Shown here: positions 129 through 30,733 of the stretch, one piece after another
Numbering within the stretch: the first letter of the stretch is position 1
Layout: each line of letters begins with the position of its first letter
IMG/VR virus record: IMGVR_UViG_3300032053_000274
Coordinates: 1 to 34,032 of that record
From: a virus
Strand: one strand, 5' to 3'
DNA length: 34,032 bases
Translations under genes and position numbers: made by a program
The notes under the pieces: model-generated
What the model saw: the letters and a program-made list of their open reading frames with translations, nothing else
Databases searched by the model: none
What the model was told of the DNA's origin: nothing

Positions 129-430
129 CCAGTCCCCCGCAGCGCATCCTGGGCGCGCCGCCTGGCCTGCACGTGTCTCCACCACGATCCCACGATCATC
201 GGCACGCCGCTGAACACAAATGCCCCCACCGTCAAGAGCGCCGCGCGCCAATCCAGCACGGCCACGCCGCCCAGCGTCACCAGCACGCCGATCACGACCA
301 GAAAGCTCGTGTATCCCTCGTCATAGCCCCGGTTCTCCAACCAGCCCACGGCCCAGTTATAGAGCAGGCCAAAAACGAACAAGCCCGCCAGGACCCGAAT
401 CACGCCGGAACTGATCCCGATCTCGCTCAT
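125..430 (-). CDS. Small integral membrane protein
   Basis: A 101-residue protein with three hydrophobic segments: about residues 8-30 (VIRVLAGLFVFGLLYNWAVG), 42-58 (FLVVIGVLVTLGGVAVL) and 63-82 (AALLTVGAFVFSGVPMIVGS). It ends in a basic tail (RHVQARRRAQDALR), so the C-terminus is probably cytoplasmic by the positive-inside rule. Its ATG overlaps the stop of the GreA-like gene as ATGA, and its own stop overlaps the next start in the same way, so three genes form a tightly coupled block. The function is unknown. Its early-operon position argues against a holin and suggests a host-membrane or exclusion role, which is only inference. Confidence 0.7.
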   Translation of the reverse strand: MSEIGISSGVIRVLAGLFVFGLLYNWAVGWLENRGYDEGYTSFLVVIGVLVTLGGVAVLDWRAALLTVGAFVFSGVPMIVGSWWRHVQARRRAQDALRGTG

Positions 431-687
431 GCCGCCGCCGGTGCTACACTGTCCGTGATTGACAGAACCTTACCAAATAAATAGCCATCGTCCATCTGGT
501 GCACCTGCAACACGTCGCCGGGCTTGGCATTCGCAAGTTGCGCCCCCACCGGCGAAGCCACGCTCACCTCCTCGCCGATCGCATGCACGGTCATCACCAG
601 GCAGCGCACCAGGCGCACCTCGCACAACTCGAACTCGATGCGCTTGCCCAAATTGGTCACAGGTTGACTCTTCCGAATGTATGCCAT
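427..687 (-). CDS. GreA/GreB C-terminal-like small protein
   Basis: An 86-residue protein. Its central part, EEVSVASPVGAQLANAKPGD followed by VLQVHQMDDGYLFGKV, follows the pattern of the GreA/GreB C-terminal (FKBP-like) domain: ISVxSPhG..L....GDvh.V....G....KV. The N-terminal half (NLGKRIEFELCEVRLVRCLV) also fits the start of that domain. There is no N-terminal coiled coil, so if the match is real this is a stand-alone RNA-polymerase-binding domain, as in Rnk-like proteins. An AGGAG lies 5 nt before the ATG. A hairpin (ACACCC/GGGTGT, about 705-721) and a dyad/palindrome module lie in its leader. The Gre assignment is by motif memory only; the gene call itself is firm. Confidence 0.6.
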   Translation of the reverse strand: MAYIRKSQPVTNLGKRIEFELCEVRLVRCLVMTVHAIGEEVSVASPVGAQLANAKPGDVLQVHQMDDGYLFGKVLSITDSVAPAAA

Positions 688-1196: not shown

Positions 1197-2345
1197 CTAC
1201 ACCATATCGAAAAAGTCACCCACTGTTTTCCACAGCGGGTGGCGCTCGCGGTCAATGCCCTTCAAATAGATCATCGTCGTGTTGACGTTGCTGTGGTGCA
1301 GCATCTGTTGAATCTGGATCAGGTCGGCGCCCTTGTGCTTGAGGAACAACGCCGCCGTGTGACGCAGCGTGTGCGTGTGGATGCGCGTCTCATCCAGCCC
1401 GGCGCGCCGGGCGATGTGTTTGACGATCTGGTTGACGCGCGCGCCGGTCAAGCAGCTCGGCCCATCCCGGGGCGGCAACGTGCGGCCGTTCTTTGCCGCC
1501 TTGCGCTCGGCCAGGCGCGTGCCCACGTCCGACAACGGCACAAAGATAATGTCATCCTTGCCCATCGTATCCAGCCGCTTGGCCGCCTGCAGGTAAACGC
1601 AGATCGCCTTGTACGCCGCCTCGGGCAATTCGTCCACGCCCTGCTTGGCCTTGCTCTCCCAGCGATAAAACACCACCTGGCCCTTGACCTCGATCGCGCC
1701 CCACGTCATCGTCGCGATCGCCGCCGAGCGCTGGCCCGTCGCAAAGATCGTCGAGATGAGAGCAAAGTCACGCAGGCCCGCCACGCTGGCGCGGTCGCAC
1801 GCCCGCAGCATCGCCATCATTTCATCCTCGGTCAAGCCGCCCGCCTTTTCGTTCTCGTAGGGATTGATCTTGGTGCGCGTGGCGGACTTGACGGGATTGC
1901 GCCCGCACAGGAACATTTCGGTGCGCGGGTTGCGTGGATCGGGAAACGAGAATTTGTGACACAGGAACTCGTACAGCGAGGATAGCCCGGCCAGGCGCAG
2001 GTTGATCGTTTGTTCGGAGAGGTCCGAGGCGCGCATCGAATTCTGCCAACTGATCACCTGGCTGCCCATCACGCGCCACATGGGAAAGCGGTCGCCGATG
2101 AACCCGTGGAACTCGTCCACCGAGCGCTGATAGGCCCGGCGGGTTTGCGTGCTGATCGTGTGGCCGTGCGAGCGCCAGCCGCCCGCAATCCATTGCTCGA
2201 ACGCGATCGGCCATATCTGTGCCTTGATCGCATCCTCGTCGCGGTCGTCCACGCCCAGCCCGGGCTGGAGCGGCGCATCGGGCATCACGACCCAGGAGGG
2301 AACCAATTCGGTTCTAGTAGCGGTTGCAGTTGCCAGCGTCATCAT
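1197..2345 (-). CDS. Second tyrosine recombinase (early operon)
   Basis: A 382-residue tyrosine recombinase. With the start at 2345 the catalytic set is R206 (ATGQRSAA), a Lys near 232-234 (WESKAKQG), H325 and R328 (HTLRHT), H350/351 (LHHSNV) and nucleophile Y360. The usual Glu after the first Arg is Ala here. An N-terminal SAM-like core-binding domain covers about residues 50-165. The start follows GGAG and overlaps the stop of the upstream zinc protein (TGATG); a second in-frame ATG at 2342 is equally possible. It is not next to attP and is transcribed with early genes, so it is unlikely to be the integrase for 5066-5107. It could resolve multimers, invert DNA or act in replication. Confidence 0.88.
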   Translation of the reverse strand: MMTLATATATRTELVPSWVVMPDAPLQPGLGVDDRDEDAIKAQIWPIAFEQWIAGGWRSHGHTISTQTRRAYQRSVDEFHGFIGDRFPMWRVMGSQVISWQNSMRASDLSEQTINLRLAGLSSLYEFLCHKFSFPDPRNPRTEMFLCGRNPVKSATRTKINPYENEKAGGLTEDEMMAMLRACDRASVAGLRDFALISTIFATGQRSAAIATMTWGAIEVKGQVVFYRWESKAKQGVDELPEAAYKAICVYLQAAKRLDTMGKDDIIFVPLSDVGTRLAERKAAKNGRTLPPRDGPSCLTGARVNQIVKHIARRAGLDETRIHTHTLRHTAALFLKHKGADLIQIQQMLHHSNVNTTMIYLKGIDRERHPLWKTVGDFFDMV

Positions 2346-2497
2346 CACTCCAACTCTCTCTGAGATTCTAGCCAAGCTTCATATTCCTCTGGGTAATTTT
2401 CTTTCCAATCTGCATAACCATCAGGGTCTTCGCATTTCGAACATTCGCAATCTGCGTAGCATTCCGATGTACTACCACATGACCAACACGGTTTCAT
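2345..2497 (-). CDS. Small Cys-rich zinc-binding protein
   Basis: A 50-residue protein that starts MKPCWSCGSTSECYADCECS and ends in an acidic helix (YPEEYEAWLESQRELE). Six cysteines in 20 residues suggest a zinc cluster. The start at 2497 is chosen because GAGG lies 5 nt upstream; a longer frame from 2536 would translate through the dyad element. The stop is fused to the start of the recombinase (TGATG). The family is unknown; an acidic, zinc-binding mini-protein could be a host-factor binder. Confidence 0.6.
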   Translation of the reverse strand: MKPCWSCGSTSECYADCECSKCEDPDGYADWKENYPEEYEAWLESQRELE

Positions 2498-3449: not shown

Positions 3450-3554
3450 CCCCTGGGCCTGGCCCCCGTCAGGCCCAGGGGAAAGCCGGGTAAAGGAGGA
3501 GAAACCCGGCGGAGACCACACGTGGCCCGCGTCATACCCCGACGCGGGCCACGT
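3450..3554 (-). other. Three tandem hairpins in the early-operon leader
   Basis: Three perfect stem-loops lie one after another: 3450-3461/3470-3481 (12 bp, CCCCTGGGCCTG), 3485-3491/3504-3510 (7 bp, GCCGGGT) and 3520-3533/3541-3554 (14 bp, ACGTGGCCCGCGTC). They fill the gap between the RHH gene and the zinc-finger gene. The loop of the middle one reads TTCTCCTCCTTT on the minus-strand RNA, an anti-Shine-Dalgarno-like tract. No T-run follows, so this is a structured leader and not a simple terminator. Confidence 0.65.
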
Positions 3555-3560
3555 CAACAC

Positions 3561-3806: not shown

Positions 3807-3835
3807 ATTTTACACCAAATAGCATAAAATGTCAA
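3807..3835 (-). promoter_or_regulatory. Early promoter with overlapping dyad operator
   Basis: On the minus strand the sequence has TTGACA (3835-3830), a 17-nt spacer and TAAAAT (3812-3807): a near-perfect sigma-70 promoter driving the RHH gene. ATTTTA and TAAAAT (3807-3812 and 3825-3830) form an inverted repeat with a 12-nt spacer that covers the -10 box, a likely operator. The plus-strand promoter for the repressor is not clear to me. Confidence 0.75.
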
Positions 3836-3867
3836 TAGGCAATTTTAGATTGAACCATAGGAATGGA

Positions 3868-4269
3868 ATGCCTGCTAGAATGAATTCAATGCCTAAAGTT
3901 GCTTTCGCAGATTGGCTTAGAGCGGAGCTTGCCGCAATAGATAGAACCCAGGCATGGCTATCACAAACATCAGGGCTGAGCCAGGGCTATCTCAGCAAGT
4001 TGATGAATCGTGAGAGGCTGGCAGGCCACGACGCCTGCACCGCCATTGCGAAGGCACTCGGCAAAAAAGACATCGAAGTAATGCGTGCGGCCGGACTTGC
4101 TGAGCCGGAGCCAGACAGCGATACCCCCAGCGCTCAAGATCTGCTCACCTATTTCTCGTCACTCATGCCCGACCATCAAGCGGACGTGATCGAACATGCA
4201 AAAGCCCTCTATGCGCTGGAGAAAAGCGAAAAACCGTATCGCGCTGTTGCTGCTGATTCAAAGTCTTAG
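3868..4269 (+). CDS. XRE-family repressor (cI-like)
   Basis: A 133-residue DNA-binding protein. The helix-turn-helix lies at about residues 17-55: RTQAWLSQTSGLSQGYLSKL then MNRERLAGHDACTAIAKALG. The C-terminal part (DLLTYFSSLMPDHQADVIEH) is a short helical dimerisation region. There is no LexA-type Ser/Lys peptidase domain, so RecA-driven self-cleavage is not expected. I chose the start at 3868 because AGGA lies 5 nt upstream; the frame also opens at 3829, with no Shine-Dalgarno. It faces the early promoter and leads the lysogeny operon, so it is the probable immunity repressor. Confidence 0.82.
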   Translation: MPARMNSMPKVAFADWLRAELAAIDRTQAWLSQTSGLSQGYLSKLMNRERLAGHDACTAIAKALGKKDIEVMRAAGLAEPEPDSDTPSAQDLLTYFSSLMPDHQADVIEHAKALYALEKSEKPYRAVAADSKS

Positions 4270-4920: not shown

Positions 4921-5065
4921 TAGCGCGAGGTCATGAATCGAGGTGAACTGAAGCGGGAAGAATAGAGCATCCTGTGAGAAAGTAACTCATCCAGGCCGGT
5001 GAGGGGGTAACATGTCCACAGACATGCTCGAGTGTCCGGAGGCGCTCAACTCCCCCAGTCTCAAA

Positions 5066-5110
<45 letters not shown>

Positions 5111-5115
5111 CACGG

Positions 5116-5161
5116 CCGGTGGACACAAGAGATAGCCCAAACCGTCTCTTGTGTCCACCGG
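5116..5161. other. 17-bp perfect hairpin beside attP
   Basis: CCGGTGGACACAAGAGA (5116-5132) and its exact reverse complement (5145-5161) flank a 12-nt loop. It begins 9 bases after the tRNA-derived core. It could be integrase or excisionase binding sites in inverted order, or a structured RNA after the restored tRNA. Confidence 0.7.
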
Positions 5162-5241
5162 TCGGCCAAAAGCGATATCGCCCCCCAGCGTGTGAGCATC
5201 CAACTCGCCCCGCTTCCGGTTCAAAAAAAAGCCCAAACCCA

Positions 5242-5275
5242 ATTATCTGAACGAGTTTCACATTATCAGAACAAG
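5242..5275 (+). repeat. Direct repeats in the attP arm
   Basis: ATTATCTGAACGAG (5242-5255) and ATTATCAGAACAAG (5262-5275) match at 12 of 14 positions and are spaced 20 bp, close to two helical turns. Their place between attP and the integrase fits arm-type integrase sites or operator sites. Confidence 0.5.
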
Positions 5276-5296
5276 CGTTCTCGAACCGGAGGCCAA

Positions 5297-6226
5297 ATGA
5301 ATACCCTATCACTCTCCAGATCAATCGAAGGATTCTTTCTCGAAGCGGGCGCCCGGCGGCTCAGCCCGAACACGATCCGCTTCTATCGCGCCATCCTGAC
5401 GCGCTTTCAAAAGTTTCTCGACGGCGATCCGCTCATGAGCGCGATCACCAAGGCCGACCTGCAGCGCTTCATGATCAGTCTCGAGCATCTCAGCAAAAAG
5501 ACGGCGCTCGGCCATCACGCTGGGCTATCCGCGCTATGGCGCTGGGCGCTCAGCGAAGCCCTCGTCGAGCGCAACCTGGTGCGCGAGATCCCCGCGCCAA
5601 TCCCCGAACAGCACACCATCATCCCCTTTACGCAAGTCGAGGTCAAAGCGTTGCTGGGCGCCGTGGACAAGAGCGCGCCCTATGCCAGGCCGGGCCAGCG
5701 CGAATGCCAGCACTCCAACCCGGAAGCGCTGCGCAATCGCGTCATCATCTACCTGCTGCTCGATACCGGCATTCGCGCGTCTGAATTGTGCGGGCTGCAC
5801 GTACGGAATCTCGATCTCAAAGCCCGCCACATCACGGTCATGGGGAAGGGAAGCAAGGAGCGGACGATCTACTTCTCAGAGAACACGGCCAAGATCATCT
5901 GGCGCTACCTGGCGCAGCGCTCCGATGAATCACTCGATGCCTGGATGTTTCCCGCCTGGCATTCCACCAGCCCGCTTGACGCGCGCGATCTCTACCACGT
6001 GCTGCATCGCATCGGCCAGCGCGCCGGCATCGCCGATGTGCACCCGCATCGTTTCAGACACACGTTCGCGATTCAATATCTTCGCAACCACGGCGACGTC
6101 TACACACTGCAGGCGGTCCTGGGCCACACTACGCTCGACATGGTCCGCCGCTACCTCGCCATCGCCCAAACCGATATCCAAGCCGCCCATCGCCTGGCCT
6201 CGCCAGTGGCCAACTGGCGGCTTTGA
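5297..6226 (+). CDS. int: Tyrosine integrase
   Basis: A 309-residue site-specific recombinase that should integrate the phage at tRNA-Pro. The full catalytic set is present: R160 (DTGIRASEL), K184 (GKGSKERT), H251 and R254 (HPHRFRHT), H277 (LGHTTLD) and nucleophile Y286. The N-terminal core-binding domain covers about residues 1-105 (LSPNTIRFYRAILTRFQKFL), XerC/D-like in style. I chose the start at 5297 because GGAGG lies 5 nt upstream; the longer frame from 5012 crosses attP. It converges with the tail-fibre gene, with only 9 nt between the stops and no visible terminator. Confidence 0.93.
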   Translation: MNTLSLSRSIEGFFLEAGARRLSPNTIRFYRAILTRFQKFLDGDPLMSAITKADLQRFMISLEHLSKKTALGHHAGLSALWRWALSEALVERNLVREIPAPIPEQHTIIPFTQVEVKALLGAVDKSAPYARPGQRECQHSNPEALRNRVIIYLLLDTGIRASELCGLHVRNLDLKARHITVMGKGSKERTIYFSENTAKIIWRYLAQRSDESLDAWMFPAWHSTSPLDARDLYHVLHRIGQRAGIADVHPHRFRHTFAIQYLRNHGDVYTLQAVLGHTTLDMVRRYLAIAQTDIQAAHRLASPVANWRL

Positions 6227-20934: not shown

Positions 20935-22986
20935 CTATCGGACCCCCGCCGTCATCGAACACCTGCAGTTGATGTCCTCCTCCGGCTCCCCGATCTGGCC
21001 CGGCGCAGGCCCTCGCCCGGCCCCCACCTCGAAATCCTCATCAATCTTGCGCGTCTGCCCATGCGCCTCGACGTGGGTGGGCCTCGTCCGCTCGTCCAAC
21101 CCGGCCAGCCACGTCTTCGATTCGACAACGTCGCTCTGCCGCCACGCCTCCAGCGTCCCGCCGTTCGCCGCCCCGATCACCTCGGTGCGCGCGATCGTCT
21201 CCGGCGTGCTGCGGATTCGCTCCGCCATCACGTCCAGCACGCGCTGCTCGAACTGGGGTATATTCTCGCCCGCCGCAATCCCTTCCTGTAGTGACGACTT
21301 CAGTCGTTCCCACGTCGTTTCATTCACCCGCTGCGCGAACCGCTGGGCGCGCCGCTCCAGGAATCGTGCCACCGCCGGCTGCGCCACGTCAAACGCCATC
21401 GTCAGCGCCAAATCCTCGAGCGCCTGCTGTCCCGCATCTTCCACGATCGTCAGCAGCACCGGCCGCGCCTCCGACCGGAACGCCTTGATCCACTGCGCCA
21501 TGTCGAACGGCTCAGCCGCCGCATCCTCCACCGACCGCGCAACTCGCTGCCGCAATCGAGCCAGCACGCTATCCTGCTGCCGGCGGAACAAATCCACAGT
21601 CACGCGCGTCACCTGCTTCTCGTAGCCCGTCGTCCGCCGCACGAATCGCGCAAAAAGCCTCTGGTGCTCGTCCGATCCGTAATCAATCGCGCGTGTCTGC
21701 CGAGGCGCCGTCTCCTCAGCCCCAGCCGATTCAGCAGGCGGTGCTGCCGGCGCGCCCGCTGGCGCCACCTCGCCACTATCCACCGGCAACAAGTTCGCCG
21801 GCGCCCACCACACGTCACCCCACGGCACTGGCTTCAGACCCTGTTCATCGCGCCACTCGTTGATCACAATCGCACCCGCGCCGATCTGTTCCTTGGCCCG
21901 CGTCCACTGCGCGCCTTCAGCCTCCTGGAGCACGCCGATCTCTGAGGCGTCGAACTCGGCCACGTCGGCCTGGTTCGGGAACATCGGCAGGAGTTGCTCG
22001 GTGATCTCCGTCGAGACGAATTTGCCTTGCGGCAACACGCAATTTTCCCACGCCGCCTTCAGCGCCGAGTTATAATTTTCGTAGGTGCGCTGGCCGCCCA
22101 CCAGGTCAATCGGCCAATGATACGCCCGGCAAATATCCTCCAGCGACCACTTCAGTCCGCCCAGGAACTCGGCCTCTTTCGGGTTGAACCCGACCGGCTT
22201 GACCTCGGCATCGAAGCGAAAGACCGCCCACCGGTGGGCCTTGTCCACGCCTCGGAGACGCCGCGCCAACGACTCCTCAATCGCCTTGGCTTGTTCGTCA
22301 TTGAATGTCTGACCCGATCGCGGCGACACCATCCCGCCCATTTGGATGCCGTTATCAAACAAATTCTTGTTCGACTTCATCCCCGCGCTCGCGTAATCTG
22401 CCGCCAGCCGTGCAGCAGCTAGTGGCGACAAGGGCGCGTACTCGTCGTTCGGATTCGGCAGCCGAATCCACATGACCTCGGTCGGCTTGTAAGCCACCTC
22501 GCGCACGCCATTTATTGGAAGATAGTAGTAGCCCGCAATGTACCGCTCCGGGTGCGGGATCACCCGAACACGATCCGGCCGCCCCCACCAGATCTCGCTC
22601 GGCGTCTGCACCCCGCTATCCCCGCGCTCCAAGAACCAAAAAGCCTGGCCCCATAAGCACAAGCTCAGTTCCGTCATCTCGATCAGCCGGTTGAACGTCC
22701 AAAAATTATTGACCTTCTTGAGCAGCGAATACAGCGGTCCGCTCATCACCTGTGACCGGTCGCCCTGCGCATTCAATTTGTAAAGCGCCAGCGGCAGCGA
22801 CGAGAGAAACTGCGCCCGCTGCGTCGCGCAGGCATACACGCCGTTGCTCGTGGCGATGTACTGGCCATACTCCGCGGGCGCCCACTCCTCGATCGGATGG
22901 CCCCATGCCTCGTCGGAGCGTTCCACCACGAGTGAGCCCAGCACAAACGCGCGCACTGCGTAACGAAGTCGATCAATGAGATTCAA
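20935..22986 (-). CDS. Portal protein fused to Mu gpF-like domain
   Basis: A 683-residue fusion. Residues 1 to about 400 are an HK97-type portal (LYSLLKKVNNFWTFNRLIEM, WGQAFWFLERG, VMWIRLPNPNDEYAPLSPLA, LKWSLEDICRAYHWPIDLVG). After an Ala/Pro linker (APAGAPAAPPAESAGAEE), residues about 440-683 form an SPP1 gp7/Mu gpF-type head morphogenesis domain with the hallmarks TIARTEVIGAANGG, DERTRPTHVEAHGQ and DINCRCSM. The portal is the DNA entry ring; gpF-like proteins are minor head components. The start codon is TTG (22986), GGAG 8 nt upstream. A 19-bp repeat also found at 7439-7457 lies in its 3' third. Confidence 0.88.
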   Translation of the reverse strand: MNLIDRLRYAVRAFVLGSLVVERSDEAWGHPIEEWAPAEYGQYIATSNGVYACATQRAQFLSSLPLALYKLNAQGDRSQVMSGPLYSLLKKVNNFWTFNRLIEMTELSLCLWGQAFWFLERGDSGVQTPSEIWWGRPDRVRVIPHPERYIAGYYYLPINGVREVAYKPTEVMWIRLPNPNDEYAPLSPLAAARLAADYASAGMKSNKNLFDNGIQMGGMVSPRSGQTFNDEQAKAIEESLARRLRGVDKAHRWAVFRFDAEVKPVGFNPKEAEFLGGLKWSLEDICRAYHWPIDLVGGQRTYENYNSALKAAWENCVLPQGKFVSTEITEQLLPMFPNQADVAEFDASEIGVLQEAEGAQWTRAKEQIGAGAIVINEWRDEQGLKPVPWGDVWWAPANLLPVDSGEVAPAGAPAAPPAESAGAEETAPRQTRAIDYGSDEHQRLFARFVRRTTGYEKQVTRVTVDLFRRQQDSVLARLRQRVARSVEDAAAEPFDMAQWIKAFRSEARPVLLTIVEDAGQQALEDLALTMAFDVAQPAVARFLERRAQRFAQRVNETTWERLKSSLQEGIAAGENIPQFEQRVLDVMAERIRSTPETIARTEVIGAANGGTLEAWRQSDVVESKTWLAGLDERTRPTHVEAHGQTRKIDEDFEVGAGRGPAPGQIGEPEEDINCRCSMTAGVR
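21289..21307. repeat. 19-bp intergenic-type repeat inside the portal gene
   Basis: TAGTGACGACTTCAGTCGT here is identical to the intergenic palindrome at 7439-7457. In the portal it encodes part of the helix ERLKSSLQEG. An exact 19-mer match is unlikely by chance in a genome of this size. Confidence 0.7.
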
Positions 22987-23009
22987 AGCGCCAGCTCCTA
23001 TTTGTCCCC

Positions 23010-23276
23010 TTAAAGGGGATTGGAGAAAATCACCACGCGCAACACCGAACGTTTCGGATCGAGCAGTTGATACGCTGTATCATTGTACATGATGTCTTGC
23101 ACCATCATCTGCCCATCGTGTCCATTCGCCGATAAAACTTGAACCGTCCGGCCCCGCGCGAGCTGCCCCGCCTGGCCCACCAGCGCCAGCACCAAGCTTC
23201 CCGCGCGCAGCGCGCCCTCGACCTGATCAATCGGCGTGTCAATCCACTCGCAATCCAAGCTCCGTCGTGGCCCCAT
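23010..23276 (-). CDS. Small late protein between terminase and portal
   Basis: An 88-residue protein (MGPRRSLDCEWIDTPIDQVE...) with a beta-rich C-terminal half (RTVQVLSANGHDGQMMVQDI). The start at 23276 has AAGGAA 4 nt upstream. The stop overlaps a 13-bp palindrome (CCCCTTAAAGGGG, 23006-23018). It is unrecognised; the location suggests a packaging or head accessory role. Confidence 0.6.
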   Translation of the reverse strand: MGPRRSLDCEWIDTPIDQVEGALRAGSLVLALVGQAGQLARGRTVQVLSANGHDGQMMVQDIMYNDTAYQLLDPKRSVLRVVIFSNPL

Positions 23277-23301
23277 CCGTTCCTTTCCCCATCCGTTGTT
23301 C

Positions 23302-23335
23302 TGGTAACGGCAATTCACAGAACGGGCGCTAGCGC
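23302..23335 (-). promoter_or_regulatory. Leader module after the terminase gene
   Basis: The dyad reads TTCTGTGAATTGCCGTTACC on the minus strand (23302-23323). A GCGCTAGCGC palindrome (23326-23335) touches the terminase stop codon on its upstream side. Confidence 0.6.
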
Positions 23336-24555
23336 TAATACACCAGCTTCCCGATCAATACACCCGCCGTCGCTGCCCACCAAGCCAGCGCCAGCGACAT
23401 CACCATGTCGTCGTGCATCCCTTCCGGGGCGCTGTACGTCGTCCGATTCGTCACCGGGTTCATCTTCATTTGGTAGGCTTCCAGTTCTCCCACCAGATCC
23501 GGCAAATTCGGGAAAGCGATCTCGCGCTTCTCCATCGCCACAGCCAGCGCCTCGATCAAAGGTGGTTTGCTCGTCGCTGTCGTCGCAAACCCCACCACAG
23601 GCACGCCCAGACGCTGCAGTTGCTCCAAGATCGGCTCGCCCATCGCATTGCTCTCTGCCAGCACCTGGATCGCCTGCCATCGTTCGCACATCACCTTCAA
23701 TCGCTGTGCCTGGAGCATGTAATCCACCTGGTTGCTGCGCGCCACCTCAACCACGCGCCGCGCCTGCACATCCAACGCCGTGAACACGGTAAAATCGTTG
23801 CTCTTGCCCCAGTCCACGCCGATCACCACATCGCCGTGCGACGCTTTCGGGTCCACAGTCATGGGCACGCTCGCGCACTCACGCACCAGGCGAAACACCT
23901 CACCGCCCGACTCGATGAACTGCGCCAGCCACTCCTGCCTGAACGTGCGCTCGGTCACTCGAGCGCGAGCCAGCTCGAACGCCTTGCGGATCTGCGGCGA
24001 GGGATTGGCATTCGTCGGCGATTGCCACGACATGAAATCCGCCACGCTGGCCAGGCCGCGCTGGTATTCAGCATAAAACCAGTTCTTGCCCTTCGGCGTG
24101 CTGATGAGAATCGCGTCGCCATTATGATCGGCCAACGTCGGCTGAATGACATCCGTCCACGCCTCTTCGGCGATGCGGCTCGCTTCATCGGCAATGACCA
24201 GGTGAAACGCTTCACCGCGCATCGAGTCCGCATTCTCGGCCGAGTAAATGCCGAGCCGACCATGCCATAGCGAAAACGTCAGCTCGCGCTCAGAGCGATT
24301 GACCGATACGGCCTTGTCGCGCATGAGCGAGCCAACAGCATTCTCGGCCCAGCGCCACAGCGGCCGCGAATTTTTATACGTCGGCGCGATCCACGCGACC
24401 TGGGCGCCCTGGCTGGCCGCCGCGAGTGCGACGCATCCACCCAACACAGTTTTACCCCAGCGCCTACCCATCGCCAGGCACTTGATCTTGGCTGGATGGA
24501 TCGCTATCCGACTCTGATCCGCTCGTAAGCGGGGCAACCGCAACTCGATAGTCAA
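23335..24555 (-). CDS. terL: Terminase large subunit
   Basis: A 406-residue packaging motor. Walker A is GRRWGKT (30-36), Walker B is HLVIADEA with D123-E124, and the coupling-type phrase ILISTPKGKN follows. The C-terminal RNase-H-like nuclease has GVDWGKSNDFTVF (first Asp at about 246) and the final acidic pair HDDMVMSLA. The start is uncertain: the frame begins with TTG at 24555 and overlaps the small-subunit gene by 92 nt, but the residues before Walker A (LRADQSRIAIHPAKIKCLAM) look conserved, so an upstream start is needed. It drives DNA into the prohead and cuts it. Confidence 0.92.
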   Translation of the reverse strand: MTIELRLPRLRADQSRIAIHPAKIKCLAMGRRWGKTVLGGCVALAAASQGAQVAWIAPTYKNSRPLWRWAENAVGSLMRDKAVSVNRSERELTFSLWHGRLGIYSAENADSMRGEAFHLVIADEASRIAEEAWTDVIQPTLADHNGDAILISTPKGKNWFYAEYQRGLASVADFMSWQSPTNANPSPQIRKAFELARARVTERTFRQEWLAQFIESGGEVFRLVRECASVPMTVDPKASHGDVVIGVDWGKSNDFTVFTALDVQARRVVEVARSNQVDYMLQAQRLKVMCERWQAIQVLAESNAMGEPILEQLQRLGVPVVGFATTATSKPPLIEALAVAMEKREIAFPNLPDLVGELEAYQMKMNPVTNRTTYSAPEGMHDDMVMSLALAWWAATAGVLIGKLVY

Positions 24556-25072
24556 CTGCCTTCACCGTGATTGTCTGCTCAACCGGGCCATTACCCAGGC
24601 CAACCAAATGCAGCGTGTGCTCATCGCGCGTGATACTGACAATGTCATAGTAGAGCTTGAAATGCCCTGCGCTGGCATCGCCGCCTTCCAATTGTGAAAT
24701 GAGCGCCATGTCCACATCGGGGCCGAATTCATCCATGCGCCGGATGCGCGCCTGGCGGCCCATGTCACGCAGGCTGATAGGCGGATCGCCCCACTTCTGA
24801 TTCTCCCACTTGTCGAGCGTCTCGCGCGAGACGCCCAGCCAATCCGCCAGCGCCGAGAGTGTCCCCAGGTTTCCCGCCTTGCGAGCATCCTTGGGCAGCG
24901 ACCACCAGGCCGGGATGAACGCCTTATCCCGTGGCACGCCACAGGCGATGAAATACCGCAGCCTGTCCCGCCATTCCACGGGCGCTGATTTGAGCCACTC
25001 GTCGAGTTCGGTGAGAGTTTTGCGTTCGAGCAGCTTGCCGGTTTCATCAAAGAGTTTCCCTTGCCGTGTCAT
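24464..25072 (-). CDS. terS: Terminase small subunit (putative)
   Basis: A 202-residue protein immediately upstream of TerL and overlapping it by 92 nt. A helix-turn-helix (LSALADWLGVSRETLDKWEN) lies at about residues 72-91, followed by a helical segment and a beta-rich part (KLYYDIVSITRDEHTLHLVG). An acidic, Ser-rich tail (SGSESDSDPSSQ) is in the overlap. Order, overlap and HTH support a small terminase that recognises packaging sites. The leader contains a nested inverted repeat (25088-25131) that could be a binding site. Confidence 0.72.
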   Translation of the reverse strand: MTRQGKLFDETGKLLERKTLTELDEWLKSAPVEWRDRLRYFIACGVPRDKAFIPAWWSLPKDARKAGNLGTLSALADWLGVSRETLDKWENQKWGDPPISLRDMGRQARIRRMDEFGPDVDMALISQLEGGDASAGHFKLYYDIVSITRDEHTLHLVGLGNGPVEQTITVKAVDYRVAVAPLTSGSESDSDPSSQDQVPGDG

Positions 25073-25467: not shown

Positions 25468-25821
25468 TCACCCCTTGGAGATGTAGGGACAATCGGGCAG
25501 GGGACAATGCCCGCCGCGCTCGATTGCCTGCATGAGATGGAAAAGCTGCAGCGTATTCCCATCCATTGAACGGGTAAAATTCTCATTCATCGAGTTCATG
25601 GCGTTGGCCGCCGAGCCAATGAATCTGAGTGTCTCGGCCTGCTGGGCGATGAAACGCTCATAAACGTTGACCTCAGCCTGACGAATCAACTTGCGCTCTT
25701 CGAACCATGAACTGAGCCATTGCGGCCCCAGCTTGTTGGCGACGATGTAGATCAGCATGAGCGCCATCGCAAACCACGGTCCATATTGCCCGGCCAGGGA
25801 GATGAGCGTCGGCTCTGTCAT
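25468..25821 (-). CDS. Membrane protein with coiled-coil tail (lysis candidate)
   Basis: A 117-residue protein with one N-terminal transmembrane segment (YGPWFAMALMLIYIVANKLG, about 13-32), a charged helical middle (FEERKLIRQAEVNVYERFIA) and a C-terminal Cys motif (CPLPDCPYISKG). The single N-terminal anchor with a helical tail resembles small holins or spanin-like lysis accessories. Its ATG overlaps the stop of the preceding holin-like gene (ATGA), so the two are coupled. The role is inferred from topology and place. Confidence 0.6.
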   Translation of the reverse strand: MTEPTLISLAGQYGPWFAMALMLIYIVANKLGPQWLSSWFEERKLIRQAEVNVYERFIAQQAETLRFIGSAANAMNSMNENFTRSMDGNTLQLFHLMQAIERGGHCPLPDCPYISKG

Positions 25822-26177
25822 GCGCGCTTCACCACCAGGCGCTGGATCGAGTCAGGCAGCGGAAGCCCCAGCTTGGTCCACGAATCAAGCAGATCGCCGG
25901 TCAGCGTGGCCTCGATGGCAGCCCAGGTGATCGGCGCCAGAAAGCCCAGCCCGGCCGCCTCACCGGCCAGCTTGATCGCATAGTAGATCCCGACGTAGGG
26001 CGCCAATTTGCGAATCAAAAACTCGCCGACGCGGCCCAACTCGAACGTATTCGACTTGAGCGCGGCAGCGAGCGCGATCACCACATTGATGAGGGTGTGG
26101 CAAACGATGATTTTGACCCCATCGTATGCCCAGGCATTCAGCAGAATCGAGCGGAGAGTTTCGAGCCAACCAGCCAT
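25818..26177 (-). CDS. Holin-like membrane protein, first late gene
   Basis: A 119-residue protein with about three hydrophobic segments: SILLNAWAYDGVKIIVCHTL/INVVIALAAAL (about 8-38), KLAPYVGIYYAIKLAGEAAG (about 54-73) and FLAPITWAAIEATLTGDLL (about 77-95). The pattern FELGRVGEFL...LAPYVGIYY recalls a holin family of Gram-positive phages. It is the first gene after the late promoter and its terminator. The start at 26177 follows AGGAG by 7 nt. It would form the membrane hole that ends infection. Confidence 0.65.
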   Translation of the reverse strand: MAGWLETLRSILLNAWAYDGVKIIVCHTLINVVIALAAALKSNTFELGRVGEFLIRKLAPYVGIYYAIKLAGEAAGLGFLAPITWAAIEATLTGDLLDSWTKLGLPLPDSIQRLVVKRA

Positions 26178-26193
26178 GTGCATGCTCCTGACG

Positions 26194-26231
26194 AAAAATG
26201 GCGCATCCGTCCCCGGAGGACAGATGCGCCA
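26194..26231 (-). terminator. Intrinsic terminator in the late leader
   Basis: On the minus-strand RNA, TGGCGCATC (26231-26223) pairs with GATGCGCCA (26207-26199), with a further GTCC/GGAC inner stem, and is followed at once by UUUUU. It lies about 20 nt after the expected start point of the late promoter and just before the Shine-Dalgarno of the first late gene, so transcripts should stop here unless antiterminated. Confidence 0.85.
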
Positions 26232-26257
26232 AGGCACAGCACATGGCAAGTGATTAG

Positions 26258-26286
26258 AGGATAGCACTCTTTTTCTGGTCTGTCAA
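26258..26286 (-). promoter_or_regulatory. Late promoter
   Basis: On the minus strand: TTGACA (26286-26281), a 17-nt spacer, TATCCT (26263-26258). The -35 box is perfect. It faces the late operon, with no gene between it and the terminator at 26194-26231. Confidence 0.78.
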
Positions 26287-26316: not shown

Positions 26317-26626
26317 GGAGACCACGTCCTAACTTCTTCAAATGGATATCCCTTCTTTCTCTTCACTTATTTCTTTATTCTTTTATTGTACCCCTACACG
26401 TGTGCGTTTGCACCAGTAGACTGGTGCGTTTACACCAGTAGCCCCGTGCACCGGTGCGCATGTCCACAGACATGCCGGTGCTTTCGCGCGCGTGTGCACC
26501 GGTGCGCCCGGCACAAAGAGAGCCGGTCAGCGAAGATCGCTTGACCGGCCTAAAAGTTACTGGTGTGTTTGTTGTGCGAATGCACCAGTAAAAACGTATT
26601 AATACGTTCTTACTGGTGCGTTTACA
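26294..26626. other. Non-coding control region, candidate replication origin
   Basis: There is no convincing gene in these 333 bases. Contents: an AT-rich pyrimidine tract (about 26345-26390); CACCAGTA or TACTGGTG at 26411, 26433, 26558, 26583 and 26611, with degenerate copies at 26420 and 26625; two GCACCGGTGC palindromes (26448-26457, 26496-26505); CATGTCCACAGACATG (about 26459-26474); a hairpin with GCCGGTCA/TGACCGGC arms (26522-26549); and the perfect palindrome AACGTATTAATACGTT. Iteron-like repeats beside an AT-rich tract, next to a gene for a DnaA-domain protein, suggest an origin. Confidence 0.6.
26522..26549 (-). terminator. Possible early-operon terminator hairpin
   Basis: GCCGGTCAGCGA (26522-26533) pairs with TCGCTTGACCGGC (26537-26549) apart from one bulged base. 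On the minus strand it is followed by TCTCTTTG, only a weak U-tract. It lies about 80 nt after the last early gene (stop 26627). Confidence 0.4.
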
Positions 26627-26830
26627 TCAGTAAACGAAACCCTCAAATAGCATCGAGGTGCGTCCGCATTTCGAGCATGTCGCATTTGGCTCAGGTGAGA
26701 GTCCACTTTCACTGACCATAATTGAATCGTCCGCTTTGACAAAGCGGCCACACCGGTCGCAGACGGGAACGAATGTTGCGCCCTCATCATAAACTACCCG
26801 TCTGACTCTGACACTCTCGTATTCATTCAT
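26627..26830 (-). CDS. Four-cysteine zinc-ribbon protein
   Basis: A 67-residue protein with two CxxC knuckles (CDRCGRFVKADDS at about 24-36 and CSKCGRTSMLF at about 52-62), a complete zinc ribbon. The ATG overlaps the stop of the DnaA-domain gene (TAATG). As the last gene before the late promoter it stands where lambda has Q, so an antiterminator or RNA-polymerase-binding role is worth testing. It has no other recognisable feature. Confidence 0.68.
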   Translation of the reverse strand: MNEYESVRVRRVVYDEGATFVPVCDRCGRFVKADDSIMVSESGLSPEPNATCSKCGRTSMLFEGFVY

Positions 26831-27654
26831 TACTGAGCCTCGAACCAATCCCGCGCATCGAATCCATGCGCATCAAGCCAGCGATCATGCCGCACCTGGA
26901 GCACGTCGGCAAGCTGCTTGACCTGCGCCGGGCACAGCAGCGGCAGCCGCGTCCGCACGCTCACCACATAGATCACGTGCGGCTCGACGCCCTGGCGCGA
27001 GACCTTACCGATCTCGTGCATGACAAGCCTATCAAATCCGCCGCCGTGATGATGCAACTGACCATCCCCATTCGAACGATTGACGCCCGTAACGGCCTGC
27101 TTGCCGCAGTTGATCTGCCCGGCCAGGGTCGGCGCCGTCCAGCGTTGATCCGGCGTCCACTCACCCTTCTCTTTGCGATGGTCCCCCTCGCGGATGATCT
27201 CCCAGATCGCCCAGCCCACGCGCCCCAGCAGCGGACGCCAGAATGACGACTCGTAAGCCGAGATGGGAAACCAGCCGGCCTCGTGCGTGTTGAACTCGAC
27301 CGGCACAAACGGACGCGGCGCAGCTGGCTCGGCAGGCTCTGCCCCCGTTGTTGTAATGGAACTTCTCAGAACGGACGGCGCCAGGTCGTTCGCGTGCTCC
27401 TGGACAACGAACCTCACCGCCACCGGCCGCCCCACAATCCCATCCAGCGTCCGCAGCACCATCGTCTGCAGCCGGTTCTCCAGCCACTCCTTCGCATGGT
27501 CGTTATGCACCCCAACCGTGAACACGCCATCTTCATACGCCAACAGATTCGACCGAGCCAGCCACGTGTTGAACGTCGCGCCGGTCAGTTGCAATTGCAA
27601 CTCGCCCAGCGCCGCCTGCCAGATCTGATCGGGATTGTCTAGTCTGTCAATCAT
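26830..27654 (-). CDS. DnaA domain-I protein, putative replication initiator
   Basis: A 274-residue protein. Residues about 8-85 match the N-terminal domain I of bacterial DnaA: IWQAALGELQLQLTGATFNT, LLAYEDGVFTVGVHNDHAKE, WLENRLQTMVLRTLDGIVG. The AAA+ ATPase and the DnaA DNA-binding domain are absent. Instead, after a Pro/Ala linker, there is a unique C-terminal half (RVGWAIWEIIREGDHR, APTLAGQINCGKQAVTGVNR) that looks like a winged-helix region. DnaA domain I contacts DnaB helicase and regulators, so this protein may recruit host helicase to a phage origin at 26294-26626. ATG start with a weak Shine-Dalgarno. Confidence 0.78.
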   Translation of the reverse strand: MIDRLDNPDQIWQAALGELQLQLTGATFNTWLARSNLLAYEDGVFTVGVHNDHAKEWLENRLQTMVLRTLDGIVGRPVAVRFVVQEHANDLAPSVLRSSITTTGAEPAEPAAPRPFVPVEFNTHEAGWFPISAYESSFWRPLLGRVGWAIWEIIREGDHRKEKGEWTPDQRWTAPTLAGQINCGKQAVTGVNRSNGDGQLHHHGGGFDRLVMHEIGKVSRQGVEPHVIYVVSVRTRLPLLCPAQVKQLADVLQVRHDRWLDAHGFDARDWFEAQ

Positions 27655-30301: not shown

Positions 30302-30733
30302 TCACCTCTTGCTCCTGTTGATGCAACGCCTGCAGCGCCGTGTCTGCTCACGCGTCGCATTATAAAATCGGCCGCACCTGACACACTGCACCCATGCCTT
30401 CACCATCCATCGCCGCACGCCTACCGTGATCTCGACGCGGTACTCGCGCGACTCGGGCCGGTGAAAGTCACGGCGCAACTCGTCGGTCAAAACCTTGCTC
30501 GTGTGATCCTCGATCGCGCGGACCTGGCGCGGATCAATCTCGCGGCGCCCCTGAACAAAATTATTCACCTGCCCCCGGCTGATGTGGCGCGCATGAATCG
30601 CGCTCGGCTCCGGGATCAACACGCACGCCTGCGCGTGTGACAGATCCATGTAAATCAGCCAATCGCCGATTCCGCGCAGCTTGCGCAATTCAGCCACACG
30701 GTCATGCGTCTCGTAAATCGAATAAAGGGTCAT
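30302..30733 (-). CDS. Protein with C-terminal zinc ribbon
   Basis: A 143-residue protein with a helical N-terminal half (MTLYSIYETHDRVAELRKLR) and a C-terminal zinc ribbon (CVRCGRFYNATREQTRRCRR-C, about 117-137) ending in a basic tail. The central segment (RGQVNNFVQGRREIDPRQVR) resembles an XRE-type HTH recognition region. It may be a DNA-binding regulator of the middle genes. The Shine-Dalgarno is weak. The 106-nt gap upstream has a TATAAA just before the ATG but no good -35 box. Confidence 0.6.
   Translation of the reverse strand: MTLYSIYETHDRVAELRKLRGIGDWLIYMDLSHAQACVLIPEPSAIHARHISRGQVNNFVQGRREIDPRQVRAIEDHTSKVLTDELRRDFHRPESREYRVEITVGVRRWMVKAWVQCVRCGRFYNATREQTRRCRRCINRSKR

Follow-up and report, generated by a model that had tools for sequence, protein, structure and literature searches.

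Why should a strong phage promoter be followed at once by a terminator, and how would the genes behind both be transcribed? We studied such a site in the window, the whole stretch of viral DNA that was analysed (34,032 nt). An earlier note had described a near-consensus TTGACA-N17-TATCCT promoter, a strong hairpin with UUUUU about 20 nt after the expected start and, behind them, the first late gene. To our knowledge, the proteobacterial systems in which late-gene antitermination has been worked out in detail are few, and their proteins are unrelated in sequence. The leader and the operon that it precedes have the following parts.

26258-26286, minus strand: late promoter, TTGACA (26286-26281), 17-nt spacer (26280-26264), TATCCT (26263-26258)
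26232-26251, minus strand: initially transcribed region, about +1 to +20, the start being inferred from the -10 element; similar in G001 and L007 by alignment
26199-26231, minus strand: terminator hairpin, 14-15 bp, -27.3 kcal/mol, with compensatory changes in G001 and L007
26194-26198, minus strand: U-tract, TTTTT; TTTTTT in G001 and TTTTCGTTTT in L007
26173-26189, minus strand: Shine-Dalgarno and start region, AGGAG (26189-26185), start codon region GCACATGGC (26181-26173), ATG at 26177
25818-26177, minus strand: first gene of the late operon, 119 aa, hydrophobic
20935-25072, minus strand: start of the packaging operon, HTH/TerS-like gene (24464-25072), TerL (23335-24555), portal (20935-22986)

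The promoter, hairpin and U-tract agree with the earlier description. The late promoter has a TG extended -10 ahead of TATCCT and is one of only two promoters scoring at least 10/12 in the whole window. The other is the likely early promoter:

3807-3835, minus strand: TTGACA-17-TAAAAT, divergent from the repressor-like gene 3829-4269 (plus strand)

Transcription from the late promoter would begin near A26251, a position estimated from a distance of about 7 nt to the -10 element; the hairpin (26231-26199) then starts at about +21, and a terminated leader RNA would end near +58 and be about 58 nt long. An Rfam search gave no match. "First late gene" is a fair label, as the HTH/TerS-like gene, TerL, portal and, in the same operon, a capsid gene lie downstream of 26177, while early genes lie upstream of the leader on the same strand. 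That the product of this first gene is holin-like is a guess.

The window appears to be close to a complete genome. Its relative G001 (IMG/VR 3300018055_000003, 36,903 bp) is collinear with it and has a gene order that joins the two ends of the window, and therefore the map is circular or permuted. The phage is probably temperate, since it has integrase genes and a repressor-like gene; two different tyrosine integrases, encoded on opposite strands at 1197-2375 (minus) and 5012-6226 (plus), flank the latter. The host is a probable member of the Chloroflexota: the protein encoded at 26830-27654 has an N-terminal domain that is DnaA domain I and shares up to 56% identity with open reading frames of chromosomal-DnaA length in this phylum, the one searched, and a TerL relative with 51% identity is found in a Chloroflexota genome bin. 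A phage protein whose DnaA domain I is so close to Chloroflexota DnaA may be a replication initiator making use of contacts of the host DnaA.

We asked how far the juxtaposition of promoter and hairpin exceeds chance. Among terminator-like structures on both strands of the window, the hairpin ranks first in strength, and the same is true of the hairpin at this site in each of three near-complete relatives. Its stability alone is inconclusive, because 32 of 60 window shuffles contained some site at -20 or better and the best shuffled site reached -27.8. Unlike hairpin strength, the pairing of promoter and terminator is decisive against chance. All loci (1.5 Mb) were scanned for promoters that score at least 10/12 and have, no more than 110 nt downstream, a hairpin (-12 kcal/mol or better) with a T-run; 19 cases were found, against about 1 per shuffle. 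In a positional count over 137 non-redundant loci with 158 promoters, using terminators of -17 or better, 18 terminators lay 0-99 nt downstream of the -10 element compared with about 1.2 per other 100-nt bin, an approximately 15-fold enrichment of this order that speaks for this phage group and not for phages generally, the loci having been picked by TerL or portal kinship. Seventeen promoter-terminator cases were listed. Most are 4-70 nt from a start codon, many lie on the TerL or portal strand up to about 4 kb upstream of these genes, and in every listed case the U-tract directly abuts the stem.

Six relatives retain the promoter-terminator layout with differing sequence, two of them (G001 and L007) with compensatory hairpin changes and four with unrelated leaders. 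From 20 nt upstream of the -35 element through +1, G001 and the window are identical at 54 of 55 bases, and in the initially transcribed region at 16 of 20. The G001 hairpin differs yet is perfect (GGCGCACCTCCC-GTGT-GGGAGGTGCGCC-TTTTTT), and L007 carries a third version on the same outer stem (GGCGCACCTTCT-GTGG-AGAAGGTGCGCC). When the three stems were compared, several inner pairs proved to have changed on both sides, and no pair was broken. The first gene of L007 differs from that of the window, and the leader is thus not tied to one gene. The first-gene protein is 96% identical in G001 and 70-73% identical in G012, G013, G014 and L066, four phages whose leaders (type B) are unrelated in sequence to that of the window. 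Type-B leaders run in the order TTGACA-17-TATACT, a covarying hairpin, a second hairpin with TTTTTATTT, GGAGG and ATG; the promoter was seen in G012, G013 and G014, L066 beginning inside the leader. Between the -35 and -10 elements of G012-G014, 16-17 of the 17 spacer bases are identical, whereas the 20 nt upstream of the -35 element are only 26-67% identical. The window and G001 are silent on such a spacer element, because their spacers (16 of 17 identical) are no more conserved than the flank. Each clade contributes only a few sequences, and these are related to one another.

Further searches set bounds to the distribution. An exact promoter pattern scan of viral contigs returned only known relatives and chance matches, and a leader pattern scan only L007 and chance matches. 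Among larger regions around TerL relatives in Chloroflexota, a strong promoter-terminator pair was present in only one (L176), so the layout is not universal. We also noted related arrangements elsewhere. The type-B leaders of L065, L067 and L069 have a covarying hairpin GGGCG...CGCCCCTACA ahead of the terminator, which could have come from a repeat element or have a function in the leader RNA. In G013 (L152, about 10655, minus strand) and G012 (L150, about 10260, minus strand), a promoter is followed by a hairpin CCACCACGG...CCGTGGTGG with TTTTTT just past the end of an integrase gene, with no open reading frame found behind it; this site is possibly a small RNA or an attachment-site feature. 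L040 contains two copies (3456-3560 and 5531-5640) of a promoter-hairpin-Shine-Dalgarno cassette, GGCCCAGGA...TCCTGGGCC with TTTTCTTTTTGG, which precede two successive genes, the first being portal. At L147:2623-2651 a palindrome AGTTTAGC-N8-GCTAAACT occupies the promoter spacer and -10 element and looks like a repressor or activator site.

Because the layout is kept in six relatives and is positionally enriched, termination probably gates late transcription in this phage, in the manner of lambda pR'-tR'. We saw no operator-like palindrome over the late promoter, and a strong promoter of this kind would express the late genes in a lysogen unless transcription were stopped; a lysogen would need these genes to be kept shut. 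We propose that host RNA polymerase starts at the near-consensus promoter around 26251 and by default would halt about 58 nt on, where the intrinsic terminator lies directly ahead of the first late gene. In the lytic cycle, a factor encoded by the phage or by its host would render the polymerase termination-resistant, and the long late operon would then be transcribed. Such a factor would load at the promoter or within the first 20 transcribed bases, like lambda Q and AlpA. We hold this reading as a whole, a late-operon leader gated by its terminator and opened by factor-driven read-through, with moderate confidence, and it is in this sense that we infer antitermination at the late leader. The same conclusion had been drawn in the earlier note. 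Its gating part is supported by the layout in at least two clades with unrelated leaders and by the positional enrichment. The accompanying argument, that a terminator in this place makes sense only if it is overcome, was too strong, since the site is also compatible with a hairpin that stabilises the 5' end, with a small regulatory RNA and with leaky read-through.

A hairpin close to a 5' end can also act in mRNA stability or in translation. The one here might accordingly stabilise the 5' end, and the U-rich stretch that precedes the Shine-Dalgarno sequence might enhance translation, with a strong promoter and high read-through. No more than about 20 nt separate the stem from the expected 5' end, and in several relatives the U-rich stretch runs directly into GGAGG, for example in TTTTTATTTGGGAGG. 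Yet the abutment of U-tract and stem in the listed cases is terminator-like, as is the rank of the stem as the strongest such site in all four genomes, and L071 even has two tandem terminator-like hairpins. We consider this explanation unlikely.

The terminated RNA itself could be the main product, and here a further element of the leader comes into play:

26239-26247, minus strand: 5' segment of the leader, GCCATGTGC, with complementarity to the first late gene's start region; kept in G001

Base-pairing is predicted between GCCATGTGC and GCACATGGC, located at the start codon, and between CCT and the Shine-Dalgarno sequence. The predicted duplex has -25.5 kcal/mol in the window and -22.3 kcal/mol in G001, each equalled by 1 of 2000 shuffles, and between the two phages its 9-bp core has seven unchanged pairs, one one-sided change and one two-sided, compensatory change. 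An RNA of about 58 nt could, by pairing through its 5' end with the translation start of the first late gene (ribosome-binding site and start codon), silence leaky late transcripts, and it may act together with the gate. A precedent exists in StxS of Shiga toxin phages, a processed, terminated late leader that binds a ribosome-binding site and silences stx1B (PMC7873438). StxS and the RNA considered here are alike in being short RNAs from a terminated late leader that pair with the ribosome-binding site of a phage gene; they differ in that the complementary site here belongs to the leader's own first late gene, and in that our RNA is a prediction from sequence. Against a main role of this kind, the pairing is confined to two related sequences. 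It is weaker in L007 (154 of 2000 shuffles were as good) and absent from the type-B leaders tested, and we therefore rejected it as a general feature. The same pairing could also form in cis. If real, it could let the terminated RNA silence the first late gene in trans, as StxS does stx1B, or act in cis; that the short RNA is the main purpose of the site seems rather improbable to us.

The terminator could also serve mainly to insulate the late genes from transcription of the early operon, late mRNA arising by leaky read-through or from another promoter and no dedicated antiterminator being needed. Early genes on the same strand upstream, and the failure to recognise an antiterminator, would suit such a role. 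The region between the early genes and the late promoter contains two further features:

26514-26549, minus strand: second, upstream hairpin, GCCGGTCA...GACCGGC with TCTCTTTG; kept in G001
26398-26632, no strand assigned: iteron-like repeats, ACTGGTG-N6-CACCAGT and GTGCACCGGTGCGC, upstream of the late promoter

The upstream hairpin (26549-26522) is separate, conserved and likely the end of the early operon, and it would already terminate the upstream transcription; the late hairpin, moreover, sits after the promoter and not before it, and near the start of the late operon the promoter at 26286 is the sole one of at least 10/12. We judge insulation as the main function to be quite unlikely. The iteron-like repeats are palindromic; together with an AT-rich stretch they separate the DnaA_N-domain gene from the late promoter, and G012-G014 have repeats of different sequence at the same place. 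A replication origin is plausible here, and an operator is possible. Lastly, although a promoter-like and a terminator-like motif each arise alone in shuffled sequence, their chance juxtaposition is scarcely credible given the covariation in G001 and L007 and the same layout with unrelated leaders in four more phages.

If termination gates the late operon, which protein could open the gate? Three candidates were considered, the first two of them named in the earlier note.

26627-26848, minus strand: zinc-ribbon open reading frame
427-687, minus strand: GreA/GreB C-terminal-domain-like protein, 86 aa, encoded in all four near-complete genomes (phmmer)
30302-30733, minus strand: HTH protein, 143 aa, YdaS-type HTH and a CxxC...CxxC ribbon

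The absence of a recognisable Q homologue, also stated there, was confirmed for the proteins tested in Pfam, PHROGs and NCBIfam; no member of a Q or other antiterminator family was found among the proteins scanned, and an unrelated antiterminator would escape a family search. We rejected the zinc-ribbon protein as a general antiterminator: G001 lacks it but has both promoter and hairpin, and no copy was found in G012 or G013. The GreA-like candidate fared better in part: it is common to the four near-complete genomes and has a weak likeness to the Gre C-terminal domain, but nothing ties it to the leader. All four members of its family match PF01272 (best E-value 6.8e-6), the copy in the window doing so at 9.5e-4, under the curated Pfam cut-off. 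Its structure model is of low confidence (pLDDT 55), consists nearly all of strand without a long helix and gave no significant fold match. Neither the 86 aa nor this low-confidence model shows the N-terminal coiled coil with which Gre factors reach into the secondary channel; because 86 aa leave no room for it, the protein should not cleave RNA. In vitro, GreB aids polymerase engaged by Q or AlpA (PMC6606751, PMC9371919). An accessory role is therefore conceivable for the phage protein, and our analysis is compatible with an accessory factor at most. The early proteins present in all four near-complete genomes also include an integrase, a membrane protein (125-430), a ParB-like protein and the DnaA_N protein.

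A factor that reads the spacer should differ between the clades, as it would meet different spacers; indeed, the spacer motif differs between the clades, and hence no single factor would read both. The HTH protein is 98% identical in G001 and was not found in G012 or G013, and is thus a possible clade-specific regulator and, equally, a possible factor. Its structure model is poor as well (pLDDT 51), and the fold matches for both this protein and the GreA-like protein were left unused. Known phage records contained no relative of the HTH protein and no convincing one of the GreA-like protein, and neither the latter nor the first late gene was found in 400 Chloroflexota genomes. We tentatively suggest a broader scheme that has some, though a low, chance of being right. 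An undescribed antitermination factor, differing from clade to clade, would gate the late operons of a wide phage group, probably of Chloroflexota, possibly together with the phage protein resembling the Gre C-terminal domain; in the clade of the window, the leader RNA would also lock the ribosome-binding site of the first gene.

How does the proposed gate compare with known ones? None of 13 leaders contained a boxA-like [CT]GCTCTT motif of the N/nut type or an ops element (GGCGGTAG) of the NusG type (RfaH). Set against the put type of HK022, with its two leader stem-loops acting in cis on the polymerase, the window has no extra stem-loop upstream of the terminator, and type-B leaders have one covarying hairpin there. 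Q and AlpA need a -10-like pause sequence; a search of the initially transcribed regions of the window, L007, G014 and G012 found no such xAxxxT hexamer, most type-B leaders being without one, and a weaker element is possible. In the GafYZ/IHF system of the Caulobacter gene transfer agent, a putative DNA element for the antiterminator lies between -35 and -10 (PMC11150451). The system resembles our site in lying upstream of a terminase-portal cluster, and differs in that its promoter needs the activators GafY and IHF and is followed by a 229-nt untranslated region, the terminator here beginning at about +21. At PA0807, a target of AlpA in Pseudomonas aeruginosa, the intrinsic terminator begins 26 bp past the start site (PMC7969949). 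The alpB and PA0807 promoters thus share with the window a terminator close behind the promoter, gated by a factor there and putatively so here; the AlpA element GGGACG-N5-GGTA is missing from the window spacer, and no AlpA relative was recognised.

With the lambdoid pR'-tR'/Q systems (lambda, 21, 82), the window shares a near-consensus late promoter, a promoter-proximal intrinsic terminator, recognised here by sequence, between this promoter and the first late gene, and lysis-type genes followed by terminase, portal and capsid; it lacks their pause sequence and a recognised Q homologue, and its host is probably of the Chloroflexota. Q binds between the -35 and -10 elements (PMC6606751), and Q (lambda, 21, 82), AlpA and GafZ all load via a DNA element in this segment (PMC6606751, PMC7969949, PMC9371919, PMC11150451), which is the segment conserved in the type-B relatives, the likeness here being one of conservation. 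Judged by its layout, the leader appears to work like a Q system, of which it is at most a candidate member. Near-consensus promoter, terminator within 100 nt and terminase operon together could serve as a signature in metagenomic phages. Overall, the conserved promoter-terminator leader before packaging operons offers a defined place to look for new factors, in phages that have no known antiterminator and probably infect another phylum than the proteobacterial systems to which the leader has been compared.
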